A stretch of 64,000 bases of DNA from positions 62,001 to 126,000 of the forward strand of contig CAJJAP010000010.1 in the NCBI GenBank assembly GCA_905182185.1, in the 5' to 3' direction. Positions 3,468 to 20,031 of this stretch are shown piece by piece (within the stretch, counting starts at the first letter, position 1; the number at the start of each line of letters is the position of its first letter). This DNA is from an uncultured Candidatus Poseidoniales archaeon (lineage in GTDB: Archaea > Thermoplasmatota > Poseidoniia > Poseidoniales > Poseidoniaceae). Position numbers and translations under genes: made by a program. The notes under the pieces are model-generated. The model had not been told where the DNA came from. It saw only the letters and a list, made by a program, of their open reading frames with translations, and searched no databases.

Positions 3468-3740
3468 ATGACTAACACTACGACACTACCAGATGTGACG
3501 ACCGGAAACGGAGAACCATCAACTAGCCGCGTACTATTGACTTTGTTTTTAGTGGGCGTAATTGGCCTATTAGCACTCTTTTCCAATGTCTTTGGATGGG
3601 ATTCCCTTCCATTGCTCAGCGACCTAATACCATTGATTGGTAACTTGGGTGGTTCTGGAATTTGGTATTACTTGATTGGATTGCTCGCAGGAGTTGCCGT
3701 GATAGTTTCCAACTTGTTGGGAGAGGTCCTGTTGGATTGA
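3468..3740 (+). CDS. Small membrane protein, two transmembrane segments
   Basis: About 90 residues from ATG 3468 (a TTG at 3453 is also in frame). A polar Thr-rich N-terminus is followed by two hydrophobic segments at about residues 21-42 and 55-85 separated by a Gly-rich loop. The next gene starts 13 bases after the stop behind a GGAGGTG ribosome-binding sequence, so the two are very probably cotranscribed. Given the oxidase-like nature of the next protein, this may be a small partner subunit. That is inference; no family was recognised. Confidence 0.65.
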   Translation: MTNTTTLPDVTTGNGEPSTSRVLLTLFLVGVIGLLALFSNVFGWDSLPLLSDLIPLIGNLGGSGIWYYLIGLLAGVAVIVSNLLGEVLLD

Positions 3741-3753
3741 GGAGGTGTGATGT

Positions 3754-6057
3754 ATGGAATCAATATTTATTGGAATCGCAATAACAGTATCCGTGATCTG
3801 GCTAACTGCTAATTACACAGCAAAAGGAATAGGCAATATGTCAGTGGCAATGCGTCAATTTTCACTGTTCTTCCTAACAAAAGCCCCAGCAGGTTTGGTT
3901 GACTTATTCGAAGACAAACCAGGTAGCGGTGCTAGAACCTGGATTAATTTCGGTATGCTTTGGTTCGTATTTTCTTCAATTTGTGGATTCCTTGGACTAT
4001 GGCACCATTACGACCCAACAGCACTAGATTCTCTAGCAAGCATTGGCTGGGCATACGATAATGGTGATGCATTAACAGCAACAACTACCAAATTCCTCGG
4101 AGTTGCAGTATTCTCAACTCTAGTTGGTGCAGGACTTGTTTCAATTTCACGCAGTAGCAATGGCAAAATGGCAAGTGAAGCAAGTGCATCCCTTTCAGCA
4201 TTTTTGTTTACCCTAACAACAATCTTTGCATCATTATTGCCATCGCTACTAGGACTGTTAGGACAAGATATAGACAGTGCAATAAATATTGTATTAATCG
4301 ATGCCGTTTCCAAATTAGCAGTTGCAATGATCGTTGCAGCGTTATTTCTAAACGTATTACTAACAGTTGCAAATAGGGGCGATGAAGATGTATCAACAAG
4401 TGCTTGGTTCCTAATTTTCGCTCTATTGATATTCATTTTGTCAATGTTTTTGGGATTCTTCGGCGAACTCGCCGGCTCTACCCAAATAGTTTGGCTTGCG
4501 GGTCAAATGGGAAGTTCTTGGGTAATCTTATCCCTAATATTCTCTGCAGCATACCACATTATCCCGATGACATCAGGTGTACCAATTTGGTCGGCTTCAA
4601 TGCGCCAAGCGAATCTATTCTTGCTATTCATTACCCTTCCACCATTCTTCATCGCTTCAGCGAGTGGTTCAACATTTTTACTCAATCTTGGTGCGATCGT
4701 AATGACACTTGGCCTACTGCCAATTATTGCAGGTAGCGTCAACTTACTATTCACTGCCAGTGGCAATATATCTGCAATCGTCAAGAACCCAGGTGCTCTT
4801 GCTGCAACACTTGCAATGGTCTTGTTACCAATCTATGCAATTGGAGCATTCTTTACTGGCATGGATGTCTTCCTCGGAACAGGGAAACTTGGAGATATGG
4901 CAACAACACTTGACATGGGATTCCTATGGACTATTGGCGGTTTGATGATTCTATCAGGGGCTTACGTCTCCTATCCTTTGGCCTGTAACAAAGAACTTTC
5001 CGAACCAAGTAAGGCCAACCTAACTGTTTGGCTTGTTCTATTCGGAGGTTTTGCCTCTACCATTGCAAATCTAATTGGAGACTTCACAATTCAAGCGGTT
5101 GCAAATTCAGGCGTTGAAGATGCAGTTGCCCAAACAGAAGGATTCTATTTGGTCGGAGCAGCATTATTCTACTTCACCGCAATCGGTGCAATACTAGCTA
5201 CATTGGCGGTCATAAGAATAAGTTCTTCAAAAAGTACATCAAGTCATTCCCAAACATCTGTTTCAGATATTAGTACCTACAACCTAGGAGACGGAGCAAC
5301 AACAATCCGTACACTCTTGGGACGAGGAGTTGGGATAGATACTAAACTGGTAGTAGGGGAAATGGAAGAAGATGAAGGTGGAAGCACCGTAATCGTAGTT
5401 TCCGCGGCACTACATGACGATGAAGTAACCGAATTCCCTGAAGAAGATAATTCTCAATCACCTCTTTACAAACTAGGCGTTGCTGCTTCAGAGAGTGACA
5501 TGACGATTCGGAACATATTTGAGATGATGGATACCGATGATAATGGTCGCATTGATGGGCCGGAATTACAGAAAGGAATCACACAAATATCTGGTGATAT
5601 ACTGTCTCCTACGGAAGTTATGGAATTATTGAGTACCTTTGATGAAGATTCCGATGGACGCTTAGACCCGATGGAATTAGTTCGTGCTATCGAGTCATTA
5701 GGACTTGACATAGCCTCTGACAATACCACAGAGTCTTCAAAAGTCTCCGCCAAACCCGCAGTTAAAAAGGCAAAACAATCCGATGCGAGCGCCAAGGAAT
5801 TGTTAATGCTGGCAAATTATTTGGCAGATTCAGAACAAACCATCATGGAGTTTTTCAAGTCTATTGATTTAGACGATTCTAATTCGATCGATGCTTATGA
5901 ATTCCAAATGGCATTGAAGAATTCAAATATTTCCAACCTCCCTCCATGGGAGATGGAGTCACTAATCACTGCTATTGACATCGATGGAGATGGAAAAATC
6001 AACTTACCAGAACTTTCGATAGCACTTGCAAAGAGCCGTCAAACACACTCCTGCTAA
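3754..6057 (+). CDS. Heme-copper-oxidase-like membrane protein with four EF-hands (C-terminus frameshifted)
   Basis: A 767-residue reading frame. Residues 1-490 form about 12-14 transmembrane helices. Their spacing and loop motifs resemble subunit I of ba3/cbb3-type heme-copper oxidases: WLAGQMGSSWVILSL, AAYHIIP and SASMRQANLFLLF align by eye with the ba3 WWTGH..., YTILP and ...ARLAFLLF region. The Cu-B histidines are replaced (Gln for the first, Phe-Phe for the pair), and the heme-ligand region near LDMGFLW also lacks His, so oxidase activity is unlikely. Residues about 585-765 carry four EF-hand loops (DTDDNGRIDGPE, DEDSDGRLDPME, DLDDSNSIDAYE, DIDGDGKINLPE), two pairs as in calmodulin. The frame ends prematurely; a SAP-like tail continues to 6202 in the next frame. 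The oxidase relation is my inference. Confidence 0.7.
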   Translation: MESIFIGIAITVSVIWLTANYTAKGIGNMSVAMRQFSLFFLTKAPAGLVDLFEDKPGSGARTWINFGMLWFVFSSICGFLGLWHHYDPTALDSLASIGWAYDNGDALTATTTKFLGVAVFSTLVGAGLVSISRSSNGKMASEASASLSAFLFTLTTIFASLLPSLLGLLGQDIDSAINIVLIDAVSKLAVAMIVAALFLNVLLTVANRGDEDVSTSAWFLIFALLIFILSMFLGFFGELAGSTQIVWLAGQMGSSWVILSLIFSAAYHIIPMTSGVPIWSASMRQANLFLLFITLPPFFIASASGSTFLLNLGAIVMTLGLLPIIAGSVNLLFTASGNISAIVKNPGALAATLAMVLLPIYAIGAFFTGMDVFLGTGKLGDMATTLDMGFLWTIGGLMILSGAYVSYPLACNKELSEPSKANLTVWLVLFGGFASTIANLIGDFTIQAVANSGVEDAVAQTEGFYLVGAALFYFTAIGAILATLAVIRISSSKSTSSHSQTSVSDISTYNLGDGATTIRTLLGRGVGIDTKLVVGEMEEDEGGSTVIVVSAALHDDEVTEFPEEDNSQSPLYKLGVAASESDMTIRNIFEMMDTDDNGRIDGPELQKGITQISGDILSPTEVMELLSTFDEDSDGRLDPMELVRAIESLGLDIASDNTTESSKVSAKPAVKKAKQSDASAKELLMLANYLADSEQTIMEFFKSIDLDDSNSIDAYEFQMALKNSNISNLPPWEMESLITAIDIDGDGKINLPELSIALAKSRQTHSC

Positions 6058-6202
6058 ACAATCAGACTCTGAAGTTGAAGTTCCTTCCCAAGTCCAACTC
6101 AACAAAATGAAGAAGGCTGAATTGGTTGAACTTGCAACTTCTTTAAGCCTAGATGCATCAGGAACAAAGAAAGAGTTAGTCAGCCGTATCACCGAGGCAT
6201 AA
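6037..6202 (+). other. Frameshifted C-terminal SAP-like tail of the EF-hand protein
   Basis: After the stop at 6055-6057, the neighbouring frame stays open to a stop at 6200-6202. It encodes a Lys/Ser/Glu linker followed by MKKAELVELATSLSLD and TKKELVSRITEA, a good match to a SAP motif (helix-extended loop-helix). Removing one base near 6036-6043 joins it to the EF-hand frame, giving a protein of about 815 residues. SAP motifs in eukaryotes bind nucleic acid; short SAP-like tails on other proteins may have different roles. Confidence 0.75.
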
Positions 6203-10933: not shown

Positions 10934-11727
10934 TCAATCACCATCTTTGTCCAATTGCTAGAATTCGCATAATGTTGTGATAATATTTGGCGGCAGATTT
11001 GAGTCAATAAATCAGCAGGGCCGCCAATATCTTCGCCATCAATAGTAATAATTCTGCAAGCACCCATTCCGCTACCTAAAGCCACCATTTCGTGCGCTCT
11101 TGCAACGAGTCTTTCTGTTAAATTACCACTCTGAAATGGAAAGCCGTGTTCTCCAAGTTTGGATAATATAATACTTCGAGTGATACTTTCAACACCACCC
11201 AGTTCACCACTGGAATACCATACAAGGCCACCTTCATCAAGTAGTATTGGAGATGCTCTATCCCCATCAATAATTGAGAATTCATGTACTAGCAATGCAA
11301 GGTCAGACCCTTCGCTACCAGCCTTCAATCTCGCTTGATGATAAGGTGCCCAATCGCCGTGTTTCGTTCCAGTAACCTTTCTATTCCAACGTGGAGCAGG
11401 GACGGTAATTGCTTCAATTTCTTCATTGCGTAAAGTGATAGTTCTCTCAGATAACCTCACAGGTGATTGTTCGGTGCAGTCAATAACAATTTTAACAAGA
11501 CCAATCGGTTGTTTTAATTGTCCATTTTTTAGGGAAACGATATCGGTAAATGCTTTTTTTATTTCATTTTCGAGATTCTCAGGCAAGGTCATTCTCAATC
11601 GTATAGCATGGTTTGACAAGCGATTCAAATGAGCTTTAAGATCAGCGACATGATGCAAACCATCCCACGTAACTGTGGTGAATACCGAATCACGCGGGCG
11701 TGATTGCGCCGCCTCGTCCTGTCCCAT
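10930..11727 (-). CDS. pabC: Class IV aminotransferase, probable aminodeoxychorismate lyase
   Basis: About 265 residues from ATG 11727; a GTG at 11730 is also possible. Fold-type IV PLP features are visible: the likely Schiff-base lysine in TGTKHGDWAPYHQARLKA, and later the GAC-RIITIDGEDIG cofactor-binding end. The class covers branched-chain aminotransferase, D-amino-acid aminotransferase and PabC. Its four-base overlap with the pabB-pabA fusion makes aminodeoxychorismate lyase (to pABA plus pyruvate) the best call. The ATG shares a base with the stop codon of the giant secreted protein upstream (TGATG), so translation of all three is probably coupled. Confidence 0.8.
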   Translation of the reverse strand: MGQDEAAQSRPRDSVFTTVTWDGLHHVADLKAHLNRLSNHAIRLRMTLPENLENEIKKAFTDIVSLKNGQLKQPIGLVKIVIDCTEQSPVRLSERTITLRNEEIEAITVPAPRWNRKVTGTKHGDWAPYHQARLKAGSEGSDLALLVHEFSIIDGDRASPILLDEGGLVWYSSGELGGVESITRSIILSKLGEHGFPFQSGNLTERLVARAHEMVALGSGMGACRIITIDGEDIGGPADLLTQICRQILSQHYANSSNWTKMVIE

Positions 11728-14700
11728 CACAACAGGTCATCAAGGAATGATGTGTCAATGTTCTGTTGAGGTTGTTGAGCCGGTTTTTCGATTAAATCAT
11801 CAAGCAGCGTGTCGTTTCTAACAGGCTGTAACACAGGTTGTTGGCTTTGGTATGCAGGCCGGCCATAACTATCAGTTTGAACTCTATTTGCATTAGCATA
11901 TATGTCACTTGATTGTGTTTGAGAAACGGTGGCTGCAGGTGGTGGAGCCGGTGTTTCTTTCGGTGTATTGTCCCATCCAGCATCGCCTTGGTTTTGCAAC
12001 CCCCATGTAGCTTCTTGTAATTCCCAATCCTTACTACGGCGTTGGTTACTTCCACGACTCTTGAAAATTGCTAGCAATAGGAATAGGGCGACAATAGCCA
12101 ATCCAATGGCTAAAAGATTTGGAGTTGTTAAGTATGAACCCAATTGCTTACTTTCATCGTCAGGTTCAGTTTCGCTATTTCCATCACCAATATCGCCGCT
12201 ATCAAATGCCTCTAACTTAATCGGATTGACACTCTCTTTGTGATATTCTTCATCTATTGCGCTTACTGACACATACCATGCAGTATTATTCACAAGATCC
12301 TCGAATCCATTTTGAGTTATTAGGAACGTATTAGTTGCCTTTACTTCGCCGACTAATATGGCATCATCAGTATTTGAGTATTCTTCAGAGGAGATATAAA
12401 TTTGATATCCTCTAACTGAAGAAGATGAGGAATGTTGCCACTGAACTAGAATATTTACTTCTTCATTCCATGCTAAACTAATTCCAATAATCTCTGGTAG
12501 ATGAGAGCCCATATCAGTAACTCCATCATCAAAAGATGCAGCACTTACTACAACTAAATCATCTTCAAAGGAATTTCCTGATGAGTCTATTACTACTACT
12601 GCGACCCAAACCATCTGTCCAGGAACCACAGGTGTATCGCCAGCGGTCAATTTGATAGACAGAGGCAATTGTGGAGTTCTCGATAAAGTAGCGATTGGAG
12701 CGATTGGACCATCTCCTCCAGTGCTAACAGAAGTGAATTGCCAAGTCGCTGCATAGATTGCATATGATTTTACATCACCATCATCGGACAAATTAAAGTC
12801 TAGTAATAGTGCAGTTCCATCATCAGCAGGCCTGTCAAATAATCTCAAGTCTTGTAATCTATCTGGTGCAATATCGTCATTCAAATTATCAATCGGAGTA
12901 ACGGTTGCTTGAACCAAATCGGTAAGGAAAACATTTCCTTTGATATCATGAACAGTGACGGTGACATATAATTCAACATCAGGCATAATTGATTTTGGAA
13001 CAGTTTCTAGCAGAGAATCCCCGCCATATAGCGCAGTACTCATTGTGATTTCAATAGGGTTCTTATCTTCATCAATCCATTGCTTATTTACTTTCAAACA
13101 GGCACAGGTTGCAGAGTCATCACCTCTTGCAGCCCATAGTGTCGAGAGGTCTGTAACAGGTTTATCCGCTACCCATACAATGTAGTGGGAAAAATCATCA
13201 GCATCAGAAATTGACCAAACAACATCTATTGCAGTTCCATCATCTTCAGCATGGTCAAAGGCATTGATTATGCCAATACGACTCGGTGCTGAGCCTGAAC
13301 CAACCGTGTTTCTAAACGGTGTAACACCGACAACATCGACATCATCCAAGTTAGCATTTAGCCAATCATCGTAAGCAACAACGCCAACCCAATAAAGTTG
13401 GCCATCTTGTAGATCAACTCCATCCATACTGGATACTATTGTTGAGTTTTCAGCACAGTCATTTATGATAGCCGTTTGGGTGAAGGAATTAACATTGTTC
13501 GGCAACAGAACCTCTTCATCAATCTCATCATCTTCTACCATCATCATAAAGATGGCATAGAAAGTACAATCCTCATCAGCACTAATGTCCCATGAAATGG
13601 TAATTCTTCCTCCATCATCATCTGGAGTATCTACTGCAGAGACATTTTCTAATTTAGCAGGCGCTGTATTATCGTTTAATCCCCCAGTTGGTACAACTGG
13701 TCCAATAATCGTAGCATTTTGCCAATCTTCTTGACCGGCTTCGTCTACACAAGTTAGACCCAGCCAGTACGGTTTACCAGCATCAAGCGATAATACAGTA
13801 GTATTCCCTTCACTTGGTGGAAGGTCAGCAGTAACGCTAAGTCCCAAAATATCAGTCATCTCTGATGTTGTTGTGTAAATGCGAGTACTTGCTAAATCAA
13901 GTGCAGTACATCGGGCCCATTCTACTTCTAAATCACCATCTTGGCCACCATCATATGGGCCAGCATTGGCCCAAAGCGGTGATTTTGGGACTTCATCTGT
14001 AGGAGTTGCTGGTCCCATAGGCAATGAGATTAGGCCCCATCTACCGTCATTATATTCAACGACAATTACAGCATAATATTCAGTTCCGTCAACAAGTGGC
14101 ATTCCATTCGCAGTAGTAACTTCACTTGACAAGCGGCTATGTAATGAAATCGCTTTGTCAACAGTTCTTCCAGAAAGGTCTGCTTCGGTTAGTGCTGAGC
14201 CGCTAGTAGTCGCGAATGGACCTTCATTGACATAGATTAGGTAACGAGCAAAGTCTTCATCATGAACGAGTGTCCAATCAGCCATCAACGCTCCTCCACC
14301 ATCATCAGGTCTATCGATCAAATTAGTCATTTCAACCGGAGTTTCCAACTTGATATAGTCATAAACTAATCTTGCTTGCAAAGAACCATTGCTCGGTGAA
14401 CGTAGTGTTAGTGTAACATAACGAGTTCCATTTATCATCACGCCGTTATCAACAGCATTCTGTATTGTATTTTCAAGTCCAGGATCACTCGTTAAGTTAA
14501 CTGTAGCATTATACTTCAGTGACACGGAACGAGACCAAGTAGCAGCGCCATCAACAGTTGAGGTAAAGGTTAGAGGTACATTTTGGAATAGCAAACCATG
14601 AGCGCCAACAGCACCAGCAGTGGAATCTAATTTGACAGGGTTGTCAACATCAACCAATTGGATTTGAGTACCCGGATGTGTCCACTCACTGATGTTAGAA

Positions 14701-15935
14701 TTTTTCATATTAAATCCAGCATTCAGTGGCATAGCGCGACGCATTTCAAATCTGTCTAATTCAGTCCAAGATGCAGTTCTTTCATAGCCCCATAGACCAT
14801 CACTCTCAGTGGTAAGCCAAACATTGTTAGCAGTTAATATTCCATCTGAAGCATTGGCCTTAAACCAGGATTTTGTTATTGCGTGTGCAGCAGTCCGTGC
14901 TTTGATTATTGCCGCACCTTGTTCGGTAATAACCAAAACATCATCGCCATCACTTTGCATACTCGTAATAGGCCATCCGCTTATTTGCCAAGAGGCCATT
15001 CCATCTTCAAATTCATTGACTTGTCCGTTCCAATGCGTCATTGGACCGATGTCAGTGGCGATATGTAATCCCCACCAATCAGCAGCCAATGCGGAAACAG
15101 TATTGGAAGGGATTTGGTCGAAGCGATGAGTATCAATCGATGTAGGTGTACTAACTTCAAAACTGGAAATCCCAGGTCTTTCCGTACTTTTACCATCATG
15201 TGAAATGAATAGAGTAGAATTGGCACCACTGGTTTTCATTGTTAGGCCCCAAGTTGAGGTTCCAAATAATCCATTTTGTGATGTCATCGTTGTGATGGTT
15301 CCAGTCATCTCGTTGTACTTTACAAGACCACTCGGAGTTGTTAACCAAATATCATAAGAATTTCCTGTAGAGTCTAGTGTGACCAATATATCTTCAACAA
15401 TGTTTGATGGTAATCCTTCGAGTATGGTAATCGGGTTCATCCAATCACTTGCAGTATAATTCCATCTACCGATTCCACCATTTGTAGCGATGTACATGAC
15501 GTCACTAGTATGGCCAAATCCATTAATCACATTAGATGGAAGTCCGGCAATTAGTTTCCCTTGTGTAAAGGTTTGAGAATTAATATTGAAAACTTGCACA
15601 CCAGGTATTGAACTACCTTGTCCAGATAATCCGATAATCAAATCATTTCCACTTTTCACCATTCCATAGTGGTTATTGTGCAATGCCCCAGTATAGGTGG
15701 TAAGTTGTTGAGATTGAATATCTAGTTTGTACAATCCTGCAGGATATGTGGTGATATAGAGGTTATTTCCGATCAATTCAACATCATTGCCACGAGATTG
15801 TGCGGAAAGAGACCATCCATAATCCCATTCAATAGAGCCATCAGCATTACGATTTCCTTGAAGAATACCAGCGCCACCAGCAACGCCAAATCCTTGAGAC
15901 TGGCCATAAGGTTGTAACCCAAATAGTTGTTGCAC
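11727..15935 (-). CDS. Giant secreted protein, C-terminal part: propeller end, FN3-like domains, membrane anchor
   Basis: 1,402 residues, opening at a GTG that is not a true start: it is the frame-shifted continuation of the frame at 15847-20031. The first 400 or so residues continue the propeller repeats, with units such as GLPSNIVEDILV and IPSNTVSALAADWWGLHIAT that match the Reg_prop pattern. Several fibronectin-type-III-like modules follow, each with a DRPADDG-ALL or DTPDDDGGRI-type entry strand and a YWVGVVAYD-type core. Near the C-terminus there is one hydrophobic helix (NLLAIGLAIVALFLLLAIF), then a cytoplasmic Gln/Pro-rich tail ending in SFLDDLL. The product should be anchored with its bulk outside the cell. 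Its stop overlaps the pabC start. Confidence 0.75.
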   Translation of the reverse strand: MQQLFGLQPYGQSQGFGVAGGAGILQGNRNADGSIEWDYGWSLSAQSRGNDVELIGNNLYITTYPAGLYKLDIQSQQLTTYTGALHNNHYGMVKSGNDLIIGLSGQGSSIPGVQVFNINSQTFTQGKLIAGLPSNVINGFGHTSDVMYIATNGGIGRWNYTASDWMNPITILEGLPSNIVEDILVTLDSTGNSYDIWLTTPSGLVKYNEMTGTITTMTSQNGLFGTSTWGLTMKTSGANSTLFISHDGKSTERPGISSFEVSTPTSIDTHRFDQIPSNTVSALAADWWGLHIATDIGPMTHWNGQVNEFEDGMASWQISGWPITSMQSDGDDVLVITEQGAAIIKARTAAHAITKSWFKANASDGILTANNVWLTTESDGLWGYERTASWTELDRFEMRRAMPLNAGFNMKNSNISEWTHPGTQIQLVDVDNPVKLDSTAGAVGAHGLLFQNVPLTFTSTVDGAATWSRSVSLKYNATVNLTSDPGLENTIQNAVDNGVMINGTRYVTLTLRSPSNGSLQARLVYDYIKLETPVEMTNLIDRPDDGGGALMADWTLVHDEDFARYLIYVNEGPFATTSGSALTEADLSGRTVDKAISLHSRLSSEVTTANGMPLVDGTEYYAVIVVEYNDGRWGLISLPMGPATPTDEVPKSPLWANAGPYDGGQDGDLEVEWARCTALDLASTRIYTTTSEMTDILGLSVTADLPPSEGNTTVLSLDAGKPYWLGLTCVDEAGQEDWQNATIIGPVVPTGGLNDNTAPAKLENVSAVDTPDDDGGRITISWDISADEDCTFYAIFMMMVEDDEIDEEVLLPNNVNSFTQTAIINDCAENSTIVSSMDGVDLQDGQLYWVGVVAYDDWLNANLDDVDVVGVTPFRNTVGSGSAPSRIGIINAFDHAEDDGTAIDVVWSISDADDFSHYIVWVADKPVTDLSTLWAARGDDSATCACLKVNKQWIDEDKNPIEITMSTALYGGDSLLETVPKSIMPDVELYVTVTVHDIKGNVFLTDLVQATVTPIDNLNDDIAPDRLQDLRLFDRPADDGTALLLDFNLSDDGDVKSYAIYAATWQFTSVSTGGDGPIAPIATLSRTPQLPLSIKLTAGDTPVVPGQMVWVAVVVIDSSGNSFEDDLVVVSAASFDDGVTDMGSHLPEIIGISLAWNEEVNILVQWQHSSSSSVRGYQIYISSEEYSNTDDAILVGEVKATNTFLITQNGFEDLVNNTAWYVSVSAIDEEYHKESVNPIKLEAFDSGDIGDGNSETEPDDESKQLGSYLTTPNLLAIGLAIVALFLLLAIFKSRGSNQRRSKDWELQEATWGLQNQGDAGWDNTPKETPAPPPAATVSQTQSSDIYANANRVQTDSYGRPAYQSQQPVLQPVRNDTLLDDLIEKPAQQPQQNIDTSFLDDLL

Positions 15936-18900
15936 TACCTGCGATACTGGTTATTTGTCCACTGACAAGACCAGGCAGTTTAATCAAAGGAGTTTGCCCT
16001 TGTGAAGATACTATGTCTACGTGACTATATCCTGAAGTACCACCAGCTTGCCCAATAATCCAACCTTGCCCATATGGTTGGAAAGATGTAACAGATGAGC
16101 CTTGAGAGATTACTGTTGCAGAAGCAGCAGTAGTTCCGGAAGTAGTGATAACTGAATATCCACCTCCAATGATATTATTGCCAGAAGTACCCAATCCATG
16201 TCCTAGAATTAGTTTACCAGCGTGATAATTTATTGCATCCCACCACACTCTGTCTGAAGGAATATTGTGATTTTGAGAAGTTATGTCATTCAACCAAGTG
16301 CCGGTTTGATAACTATACTTTGAAACAGGCATATCGTCAGCATAATATCCAATGTAAAGAGTGTCAACTCCATCACAAGCCACTGCTGAAGGAGAATCAT
16401 CATCCAAAGAAGTTCCAGAAATATGAGTGCCAGCAGTAGCATTTTGTAAATCGATTACTGCAATTCCACCATTGAAACCATTGTACATGGCGACATTGAG
16501 AACTCCACCACACATTGTCATAGAAATTGGATATCCATTTGGCATTCCACTTTGTCCACCAGTAAACGTAGACCAAGAGCCAGAACTATCTAAGTGAGAA
16601 ATTGTACCAGTTCTAAATCCACCCCAATTAGTGAATTCAGCGCCACCGACTACCAACTCAGTACCATCTGTCCAGATGTCATAGAATCTCTCTCCTGCAT
16701 TATTTGGTAATCCACTACCCTCAGTCCAAGTTGTTAGCCAAGAATTAGAAGATTCGTTATATCTTGCTACGCCATCTTCAGTCGCGAACAATGTCGCACC
16801 ATCAAATTCAACAATTCCTCTTATCGGGAAGTCAAATACAGAATCATCCCAAGAATTAACTAAAGAGCCATTATTGTAAAGATCCAATTTAGTTTCGCCC
16901 CAGGCAACCCAATGATTACCAGCAGATGAAAGGTAAGATGTCACTCGGTTAATTTCTCCAATAGGTTCAACATTTGGCCCCCATGAATTATTGCTGGCAT
17001 TCCATTGAGCAATACCACCAGACCCATCTGCATTCCACCATTGCCCAGAAGCCAATCCAACCATTAAGGTGTCACCAATGAAATTCATTCCGTAAACATC
17101 ACCATTATTTTCCGATAATTGACTTCCAATATCGAGTGAGGTCAGCGAAGTGAAGTTTGCGATGTTTATTCTTCCAATACTATCGCTTTGAGTAGATTGG
17201 TGAAAATACATCACATCTCCATGAATCATTAATTGATAAGGGTCACCATTTCCAGAATACAAAGCATTGGTTTTTTCAATATCATATTCTTCGGTTTCAT
17301 TGACAATGTCAATCAATTGGAAACCGTCATCGCCTCCAATCCAGATTTGATTAGGTCTAATGTCGGCCACCAAACTAGTAATTCCGTTTGTGTCCAATAC
17401 GTTGTTAACAGTCCAAGTAGGGAGCCATGTATTGTTGGTGATGTCGTATCTTAGCACGCCAATTCCATCAAGGCCGATATATGCAGTAGTGTTGATAACT
17501 TCAACCGGGGCAGTAGCACTTTGACTCCCTTCGCCCCAATTTGAATCGTGTTCAAAATTTGTAATATCAACTAACCCAACACCGGAAAGAGTTCCACCAT
17601 ATACGAAATCAGAATCGGAGTGGACAGCATATACAGCCCAATTAGGCATTCCATCTTGGACATTTTGACAATCATCAATAGTTATAGTTGACAAAACATA
17701 TTTACAAAGCCCAAGGTTTGTTCCAGCATACAAATCTCCTCCATCAATAACGAAATCAAAGAATTGAGTTGGCCGTGTTGACCATTGACCACCATTAATA
17801 AAATTGGTCGAAGAACTACCATCCCATCGAACTGCACCACCCTGAGTTCCGATGTAGAGGTTAGAACCATCGCTTTCCAAAGCATAGATGCTAGAACTTG
17901 GCAAGATGCTTCCACGTGTGGTTAAAGGAGTTAATATTTCTCCAGTAGCTAGGTCTTTGCGAGCAACACCATAGCCTGAAAGTCCGAAATGTAGTATATC
18001 TCCAACAACTGCGATAGGAGCGTAATCTACTCCATTAACGCCAGTTGAGACCCAAGATGAAAGAAAAGTATCATTGCTAATATCGTATCGAATAATCCCT
18101 GAATCTTCGCTTCCAATAAATGCTATATCTTGATGAATAGCAACATCATTTAAGAAATCAGAATCCATGCCATCAGATGAATCATAACTCAAAATCGAAG
18201 CAGATGAAATATTGATAATACTTATCCCACCACTTTGGTGAGTAGAGACCATAATTCCATTATTGATTGCAAAGTTTGCGATTGAATTACTATACATTCC
18301 ATTTGCATTGGAATATGAATTAATCACGCTACCATTTTTAGCATAATTAATGATTCCATGGGCTTCAGTTCCCATGTATATGCTATTTCCATCAGTGTGT
18401 ATTGAGGTCGCAGTCATGCCATGAATTACTGGGCTTAGCCATTTTGATTGCCCGATATCATATCTGTCCAAAACATAAGGATTGGTGATGAATAGGACAT
18501 TATCCAACTCAACAATATTTGTCATATCCCCTGAACTTGGTGAGCTTGAGATAGGGATTTGGCCATCGTAACGAGTAGATTTAGTAGGTGTTAATTTGAC
18601 AATTTTACCAGTATAATCGGTTAATAAAATTGTATCACTCATCGGTGCGCGAGAGCCACCTGAAGGCCAAGTAAACATCGATCTGCCCGCATAGATGCCG
18701 TAATTTGACAATGTGTCAGTGGTTCCGAAAACTCCACTTGTAGTATTGTAATAATGGACATTTGCCCCGTTCAAGATTAGCAATTGGTCGCCAATTGATT
18801 CAACGCCCCAAATATCATCAGCACCGAGCCAATTTGCAGAATTCCAAGTGCTCAACCAGAAATTAGAATTCCAATCAAAGCGTGCTACTCCGTTATCATA

Positions 18901-20031
18901 TGAGCCGAATAATATTTGGTTATTAGTGACTGTAATCGACCAAATATAATCTGAATGTAATACATTTGCAGTGGTCCAAGTAGAAAGGGAAGTAGCGGAG
19001 GATATGTCCCATCGATTGATACCATTCTCCCATGAACTGACATAGATTATTCCATTGTGCTCAATCATGTCAATTGAGAATCCACTATTCCAATTAGTAT
19101 CATTAGAACCTACTAGGTTTTGCCAAGAGTTAGCGCTATAATCATATTCGAATAATCCCCCATACCCTGCCATGAATAAGTTTCCATTTAGTGTAAGCAA
19201 TTTTGTTTGATATGAATCGGTAACGGCCGGAGCAGAAACGACCATTGCTAGAGAACTGTCGTCTAAGTTCAAGAAATGTATCCCATCTGTATCGGTGAGG
19301 ACTATTAGGTAGCGATTAACTTCATCCACGGCTATATCAAGAATAGAACTAGCATTTTCAAATGTGATGATATCGATTATTTGTGGATCATTATTTGCAT
19401 CTAATACAACAACTGAATTTGTAACGCCAACCATCATCCTACCATCGTCAGGGTGAACTGCATTGGCCCTGATATCGAGATTTATTGGTTCAAAAGATAC
19501 AGCGGGGTCGGCAGGTGCTAAGGCCTCAAATACCAATTCTGTAATTTCAGCATCGCTTGGTAGAGTCCACCCTGCGCCGGTGTCACTATTTGGGTTCAAT
19601 CGGCTGGAATGTGGGTTGGAGCCATCAAAGAAATCGTTTGAACCAAACATCCCAAGTCCTCTCCAATCAAACAAGTTAATGCCGATATCAGAAGCGGTAA
19701 GAATCGGTTCCTCAATTAGTAAACCATCGCTACCGTTTACTCTTAATTGCAAGGAAACATTTGACAAATCTGCGCCAGGGGCAAACTCCAATTGCCATTC
19801 AGTCGTTCCTTGAGCGCCCGGAGTTACTCCAGCGCCGACGGTGTTGAGTTGAACCCAACCAGTGTCGTTGTGTCCCTCCGTTGGCCATATCGCACTATCC
19901 TTCACTCCATGTGCAGAAACAACAGGAGATGCCAGTATAGGGGCTAGACTAGATAGCAACATTATCAACACAAGTGAGATTGCTTGGCTGGCACTGCGAG
20001 ACGCCTTGGCCGACTTGGTATAATGGGACAT
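15847..20031 (-). CDS. Giant secreted protein, N-terminal part: signal peptide and beta-propeller repeats
   Basis: 1,394 residues starting at ATG 20031. A signal peptide (basic start, hydrophobic core at about 18-38, SAHG end) precedes a short beta domain. Then come many propeller blades, each with a pattern like VTSLxxDxxxLYIGTxxGVxRYD and intervening xxxTWTTxNxL loops. These resemble two-component-regulator and Kelch-type propellers. The frame ends in a Trp/Arg-rich nonsense stretch after SIAGSATTIWVTT; the real continuation lies in the neighbouring frame. Joining them by removing one base around 15918-15923 gives about 2,770 residues. Role is unknown; adhesion, sensing or polymer binding outside the cell are all possible. 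It diverges from the malic-enzyme gene. Confidence 0.75.
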   Translation of the reverse strand: MSHYTKSAKASRSASQAISLVLIMLLSSLAPILASPVVSAHGVKDSAIWPTEGHNDTGWVQLNTVGAGVTPGAQGTTEWQLEFAPGADLSNVSLQLRVNGSDGLLIEEPILTASDIGINLFDWRGLGMFGSNDFFDGSNPHSSRLNPNSDTGAGWTLPSDAEITELVFEALAPADPAVSFEPINLDIRANAVHPDDGRMMVGVTNSVVVLDANNDPQIIDIITFENASSILDIAVDEVNRYLIVLTDTDGIHFLNLDDSSLAMVVSAPAVTDSYQTKLLTLNGNLFMAGYGGLFEYDYSANSWQNLVGSNDTNWNSGFSIDMIEHNGIIYVSSWENGINRWDISSATSLSTWTTANVLHSDYIWSITVTNNQILFGSYDNGVARFDWNSNFWLSTWNSANWLGADDIWGVESIGDQLLILNGANVHYYNTTSGVFGTTDTLSNYGIYAGRSMFTWPSGGSRAPMSDTILLTDYTGKIVKLTPTKSTRYDGQIPISSSPSSGDMTNIVELDNVLFITNPYVLDRYDIGQSKWLSPVIHGMTATSIHTDGNSIYMGTEAHGIINYAKNGSVINSYSNANGMYSNSIANFAINNGIMVSTHQSGGISIINISSASILSYDSSDGMDSDFLNDVAIHQDIAFIGSEDSGIIRYDISNDTFLSSWVSTGVNGVDYAPIAVVGDILHFGLSGYGVARKDLATGEILTPLTTRGSILPSSSIYALESDGSNLYIGTQGGAVRWDGSSSTNFINGGQWSTRPTQFFDFVIDGGDLYAGTNLGLCKYVLSTITIDDCQNVQDGMPNWAVYAVHSDSDFVYGGTLSGVGLVDITNFEHDSNWGEGSQSATAPVEVINTTAYIGLDGIGVLRYDITNNTWLPTWTVNNVLDTNGITSLVADIRPNQIWIGGDDGFQLIDIVNETEEYDIEKTNALYSGNGDPYQLMIHGDVMYFHQSTQSDSIGRINIANFTSLTSLDIGSQLSENNGDVYGMNFIGDTLMVGLASGQWWNADGSGGIAQWNASNNSWGPNVEPIGEINRVTSYLSSAGNHWVAWGETKLDLYNNGSLVNSWDDSVFDFPIRGIVEFDGATLFATEDGVARYNESSNSWLTTWTEGSGLPNNAGERFYDIWTDGTELVVGGAEFTNWGGFRTGTISHLDSSGSWSTFTGGQSGMPNGYPISMTMCGGVLNVAMYNGFNGGIAVIDLQNATAGTHISGTSLDDDSPSAVACDGVDTLYIGYYADDMPVSKYSYQTGTWLNDITSQNHNIPSDRVWWDAINYHAGKLILGHGLGTSGNNIIGGGYSVITTSGTTAASATVISQGSSVTSFQPYGQGWIIGQAGGTSGYSHVDIVSSQGQTPLIKLPGLVSGQITSIAGSATTIWVTTLWPVSRIWRCWWRWYSSRKS

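Follow-up and report, generated by a model that had tools for sequence, protein, structure and literature searches.

What can a membrane protein be that resembles subunit I of a heme-copper oxidase by eye, has the metal-ligand histidines replaced and carries a tail of EF-hands? An earlier note raised this question for a gene in the window, the whole 64,000-nucleotide stretch analysed here, from an uncultured Candidatus Poseidoniales archaeon. The ATG-started frame that the note read from 3754 on the forward strand, with a polytopic membrane domain of about 490 residues, was confirmed. The feature end at 6202 was not: the ORF stops at 6057, and the SAP segment at 6035-6202 lies in another frame. 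The locus comprises the following features.

3468..3740, + strand: P0003, a 90-aa protein with two likely transmembrane helices, conserved directly upstream of the membrane-protein gene
3754-6057, + strand: ORF of 767 aa, ATG start at 3754, stop at 6057
3754..5229, + strand: membrane domain, residues 1-492, CcoN homologue by hhalign, without the heme/Cu-B ligand set
5266..5349, + strand: conserved motif TTIRTLLGRGVGIDT after the last helix, predicted cytosolic, found by phmmer across the family tails
5443..5727, + strand: EF-hand pair 1 (Pfam), residues 564-658, the extra pair of the window copy
5785..6051, + strand: EF-hand pair 2 (Pfam), residues 678-766, common to orthologues
6035..6202, + strand: SAP-domain segment (Pfam SAP, E 1.1e-9), in a different frame from the ORF

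The gene and its family

The membrane domain of the window copy gave dN/dS values of 0.084-0.088 against three orthologues and relatives were found in 80 of 292 genomes, which argues that the gene is more than a chance reading frame. Computation shows that the gene at 3754-6057 is real and under strong purifying selection. The profile search was limited to the genomes of one phylum (n=292), which we take to be Thermoplasmatota, and all 80 matching genomes fell in two families of one order, Poseidoniales: the family of the window (Poseidoniaceae by contig labels) and a sister family, presumably Thalassarchaeaceae. G031, which is 90% complete, belongs to the order yet gave no match; it is among the 20 non-matching genomes listed, with 192 others also non-matching. 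A scan of genome contigs for close relatives returned 7 loci, labelled Poseidoniaceae, Poseidoniales or just Euryarchaeota, and viral contigs contained no relatives of the membrane domain. The family profile was built from 87 of 116 ORF hits, leaving out duplicates, sequences shorter than 400 aa and those with more than 20 X; by tail counts, 52 members came from the window's family and 35 from the sister family. The motif TTIRTLLGRGVGIDT was detected by phmmer in 52/52 tails of the window's family and 29/35 of the sister family, and by a stricter regular expression in 63/87 tails.

Relationship to the cbb3-type oxidase subunit I

For the window's membrane domain, Pfam gave no family; the family profile hit no PDB sequence with E values as high as 10, and Pfam COX1 was matched by 4/28 members at the same limit. 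L039 gave the clearest COX1 match, with residues 59-433 aligned collinearly to profile positions 3-401 (E 1.5e-6, below cut-off). Six partial COX1 matches in sister-family genomes were out of register by position arithmetic, pairing profile positions ~37-177 with residues from ~383-394. AlphaFold2, run on the window copy and seven orthologues (8 close sequences), returned an unusable model with a pLDDT of 36.

When the 87 family sequences were compared by hhalign with 9 CcoN or CcoN-like sequences, the two profiles aligned collinearly over 405 columns with a probability of 98.8, an E value of 1.2e-16 and a score of 133.4. Controls scored far lower: 16.9 and 15.0 for two unrelated polytopic membrane families, 12.6-26.2 for reversed profiles and at most 22.1 for 30 column-shuffled CcoN alignments. 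Either half of the family retained the match (90.2 for the window's family alone, 99.4 for the sister family alone), as did either part of the CcoN set (87.4 for seven typical CcoN, 95.9 for two divergent CcoN-like sequences of the L225/L226 kind). As a yardstick, A-type oxidases against CcoN scored 155. The membrane-domain family scored 25.1 against A-type oxidases alone and 27.3 against two other archaeal oxidases, values little above the controls, which places its link on the cbb3 side. The oxidase sets excluded L119, L123, L125 and L137 as likely wrong-frame picks and L159 as a duplicate; L129 and L151 were left out of the A-type set, and L148 and L151 stood in the mixed set only. L148 (G044:C12) is itself a divergent COX1-family protein from a sister-family genome (E 5.1e-38), far from the canonical type, and a sister-family neighbour, L044, has an oxidase-like N-terminus as seen by eye.

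The membrane domain is thus shown by computation to be homologous, as far as profiles can tell, to cbb3-type oxidase subunit I over a 12-helix core, and it probably adopts the oxidase fold. The relation to oxidases that the earlier note had drawn by eye stood up, although the nearest relative was the cbb3-type CcoN and not clearly the ba3-type that it had named. The motifs that it quoted, WLAGQMG and AAYHIIP, are present; in the alignment they fall on helices VI-VII of oxidase subunit I. Among family members, 45 positions are at least 80% conserved, and at 22 of these the residue was also the CcoN majority residue. The shared residues include the W at the position of P. stutzeri W203, an N and a T in helix VIII, and W/S/P positions; W203 and the three Cu-B histidines of the P. 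stutzeri cbb3 oxidase are given in PMC3578206. The cbb3-like oxidases of the L225/L226 kind, in which subunit I lies beside a long 'subunit II', match the family about as well as typical CcoN does (96 vs 87). RefSeq names them oxidase subunits, whereas the window's family lacks the ligand set.

We mapped the CcoN ligands onto the 87 members through the alignment. Histidine occupied the helix II low-spin heme position in 0/87 members, the helix VI Cu-B position in 22 (R in 35, Q in 13) and the helix VII Cu-B pair in 0/87 and 0/87. Because helix X lay in a gap left by hhalign, its ligands were counted by distance from an invariant proline; histidine was found there in 0/87 members at the high-spin heme site and in 1/87 (L106) at the low-spin heme site. 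The complete ligand set occurred in 0/87 members, while the tryptophan that precedes the Cu-B histidine by four residues was kept in 84/87. Seven members had a histidine no more than four columns from the helix II site and six had one near the helix VII site, and small register errors are therefore possible. Ligand loss throughout the membrane-domain family is shown by computation, read through this alignment. It bears out the claim that the Cu-B and heme-ligand histidines are replaced and marks the absence as a family trait in the orthologues, not a defect of the window copy. A canonical COX1 gene is present elsewhere in the window's own genome. Besides the lost ligands, the family differs from CcoN in an extra N-terminal helix and a predicted cytosolic tail with EF-hands. 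Three members (L038, L039, L112) have a histidine at about residue 110, in the column next to the helix II heme-ligand site, and a SAP tail without EF-hands; they may be the closest to the ancestral oxidase.

The EF-hand and SAP tail

The tail of the window copy contains four EF loops with the canonical 12-residue pattern, and Pfam EF-hand families match them, in agreement with the earlier reading; the number is unusual among the 52 tails of the window's family. By loop pattern, 49 of these have two EF loops, two have four (the window copy and L104) and one has none. In all, 51/52 tails in the window's family and 0/35 in the sister family had EF-hands; the one tail without them in the former ends at a contig edge. 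The fusion of membrane domain and EF-hands therefore holds as a trait of the window's family and does not extend to the sister family. Computation shows the EF-hands as a lineage-specific addition in the window's family, to judge from the tails compared. Since the sister family is without them, Ca2+ is not needed for the function of the core. Counting K/R in the presumed loops gave 11 on the inner and 1 on the outer side, with helix limits taken from the model of pLDDT 36, a bias that would place the tail in the cytosol. The EF-hand tail is predicted to bind Ca2+. The NCBIfam model for the XopAW effector also responded to this protein (56.4 bits vs a cut-off of 120), in the EF-hand region only, and we put this down to EF-hand similarity.

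The SAP tail described in the earlier note is supported by its Pfam match and is out of frame in the window copy. Immediately ahead of the SAP segment the window carries one additional base, the sequence after that base is well kept in comparison with five orthologues, and in those five the SAP domain is in frame; this indicates a recent frameshift in the window copy or an assembly error. The window's own genome is 63% complete. SAP was in frame in 23/52 tails of the window's family and in 3/35 of the sister family. The tail of another member (L103, 5001-7589) has helix-hairpin-helix domains at its end in place of SAP.

The two EF-hand pairs have relatives in other membrane proteins. Pair 1 is absent from the aligned orthologues of the window copy. 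It shares 73.7% identity over 95 aa with a pair in L233, a membrane protein with EF-hands that is otherwise unrelated and comes from another genome of the genus, and so looks like a transferred module. The relative of pair 2 sits inside ATP synthase subunit I (L235), with 62.9% identity over 89 aa. Among the 60 genomes of the order that were searched, a match spanning the insertion in ATP synthase subunit I occurred in 10/11 genomes of the window's genus; the other 49 showed no spanning insertion among the matches listed. The subunit of the window's own genome (L253) is without the insertion. A NuoL-like complex I protein (PF00361/PF00662) contains a pair ~56-60% identical in three genomes from a different genus of the family, while L254, a NuoL-like protein of the window's genus, has no EF-hand pair. 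The insertions are located as follows.

L235:1139-3487, - strand; L242; L255:2480-4888, + strand: EF-hand pair in ATP synthase subunit I (V_ATPase_I), window's genus
L250:4482-7052, - strand; L251:4498-7035, - strand; L252:2872-5406, + strand: EF-hand pair inside the NuoL-like subunit, other genus

Taking both hosts together (ATP synthase subunit I in L235 and L255, NuoL-like proteins L250-L252), the pairs are ~56-64% identical to the window pair. Unlike the window tail, these are internal insertions, and their hosts are unrelated membrane machines. Recurrence of the EF-hand pair in other membrane proteins is shown by computation, on the evidence of these alignments. An amino acid permease (L218:1381-3081, + strand) carries a C-terminal EF-hand pair, and at G000:C5:64484-66024 in the window's own genome the permease and EF-hand parts occupy separate open frames, which may reflect another frameshift in the assembly.

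Calcium-binding protein modules were noted in both Poseidoniales families in PMC9258230, whose Poseidoniales section makes no mention of oxidase homology, ATP synthase or complex I. Searches of the open-licence PubMed Central literature returned neither a heme-less oxidase family nor EF-hands in the archaeal versions of these two complexes, and term searches within PMC9723583 and PMC11841059 gave nothing on these points.

The upstream partner and possible roles

A P0003 homologue lay directly upstream of the membrane-protein gene in 86/88 distinct family loci under our gap rule, and the two loci outside this count (L024, L117) also have one, overlapping an over-extended start. The window's P0003 may have a longer start at TTG 3453. 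It matched no Pfam family above cut-off, was free of CXXCH on reading, and gave no match above controls to CcoP N-termini, CcoO or CcoQ. We also considered P0003 as a CcoP remnant, following a weak FixP_N match of the L038 partner (E 0.024), but this found no support: the hhalign score was 13.9, and shuffles (n=100) reached 22.7. The gene pair was flanked by the same two genes in the 39 loci examined (22 in the window's family, 17 in the sister family), upstream by what appears by eye to be a radical SAM enzyme, with no Pfam match, and downstream by a YGR210-like Obg GTPase. In contrast to the cbb3 complex, the neighbour is a 90-aa two-helix protein, and the survey of these loci found no CcoO/CcoP companions beside the membrane-protein gene and no oxidase, complex I or ATP synthase genes beside the locus. 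The flanking genes give no functional clue and do not point to respiration. Elsewhere in the window (11727-20031, - strand), two very long ORFs (1402 and 1394 aa), set in different frames and overlapping at their ends, are possibly one broken giant gene.

On balance we favour, with some reserve, a redox-dead cbb3-like membrane subunit that acts with its upstream partner and to which Ca2+ control was added in one family. Weighing against this reading are the missing PDB and Pfam matches, the few or out-of-register COX1 matches, the near-control scores with A-type and two other archaeal oxidases, the unusable model, the flanking genes and the sister family without EF-hands. The core would have descended from a cbb3-like heme-copper oxidase subunit I, keeping the 12-helix core and one N-terminal helix, and with its heme and Cu-B ligand set lost the protein would be redox-dead. 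The membrane subunit probably forms a complex with the two-helix upstream protein. The EF-hand pair would have been added to the tail in the window's family, so that cytosolic Ca2+ likely tunes the membrane part. We infer that this part most likely handles ions or protons, or has a regulatory role, in membrane energy conversion, given the closely similar EF-hand pairs that interrupt ATP synthase subunit I and a NuoL-like complex I subunit in related genera; such a role draws on the ancestry of the fold and on the company that its EF-hand module keeps. A more specific version, which we regard as rather unlikely, is that the oxidase core lost its redox centres and was turned into a Ca2+-controlled ion device, within a broader control of energy conversion by Ca2+ in these archaea, and that one EF-hand module was passed among it, the ATP synthase stator and the antiporter-like subunit of complex I.

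The redox-dead subunit has three competitors. Strict conservation of core and partner despite the lost ligands would also be expected of a non-catalytic structural or assembly subunit, whose core scaffolds a respiratory complex while the tail recruits cytosolic factors and no ion passes, and the variable tails (EF-hand, SAP, helix-hairpin-helix) suit a docking platform; we hold this to be doubtful, however, as none of the 39 loci adjoins genes of a candidate complex. The fold might instead have been re-used in a transporter or sensor of something else, such as a metal, a solute, a lipid or a redox-inactive ligand. Conserved polar residues in the presumed helices (N200, T204, N330, T334), presence across the order in 80 genomes, G031 being a member without a match, and the EF-hand pairs of other transporters of these archaea, such as the L218 permease, are consistent with that role, but the neighbours give no clue to a substrate and we think it quite improbable. 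That the CcoN resemblance is a chance similarity of hydrophobic helices in an unrelated membrane family, as the missing PDB match, weak A-type scores and unusable model might suggest, can hardly be reconciled with the collinear alignment of 405 columns: it scored 133, all controls stayed at about 26 or below, and the match reappeared when either set was split in two.

Metal sites define heme-copper oxidases. If the redox-dead reading is true, a conserved core without them separates the ion-handling or structural role of the fold from its oxygen chemistry, in a form that can be tested. In marine archaea, the recurrent insertion of one EF-hand module into ATP synthase and complex I would count as direct evidence that Ca2+ controls energy conversion in archaea.
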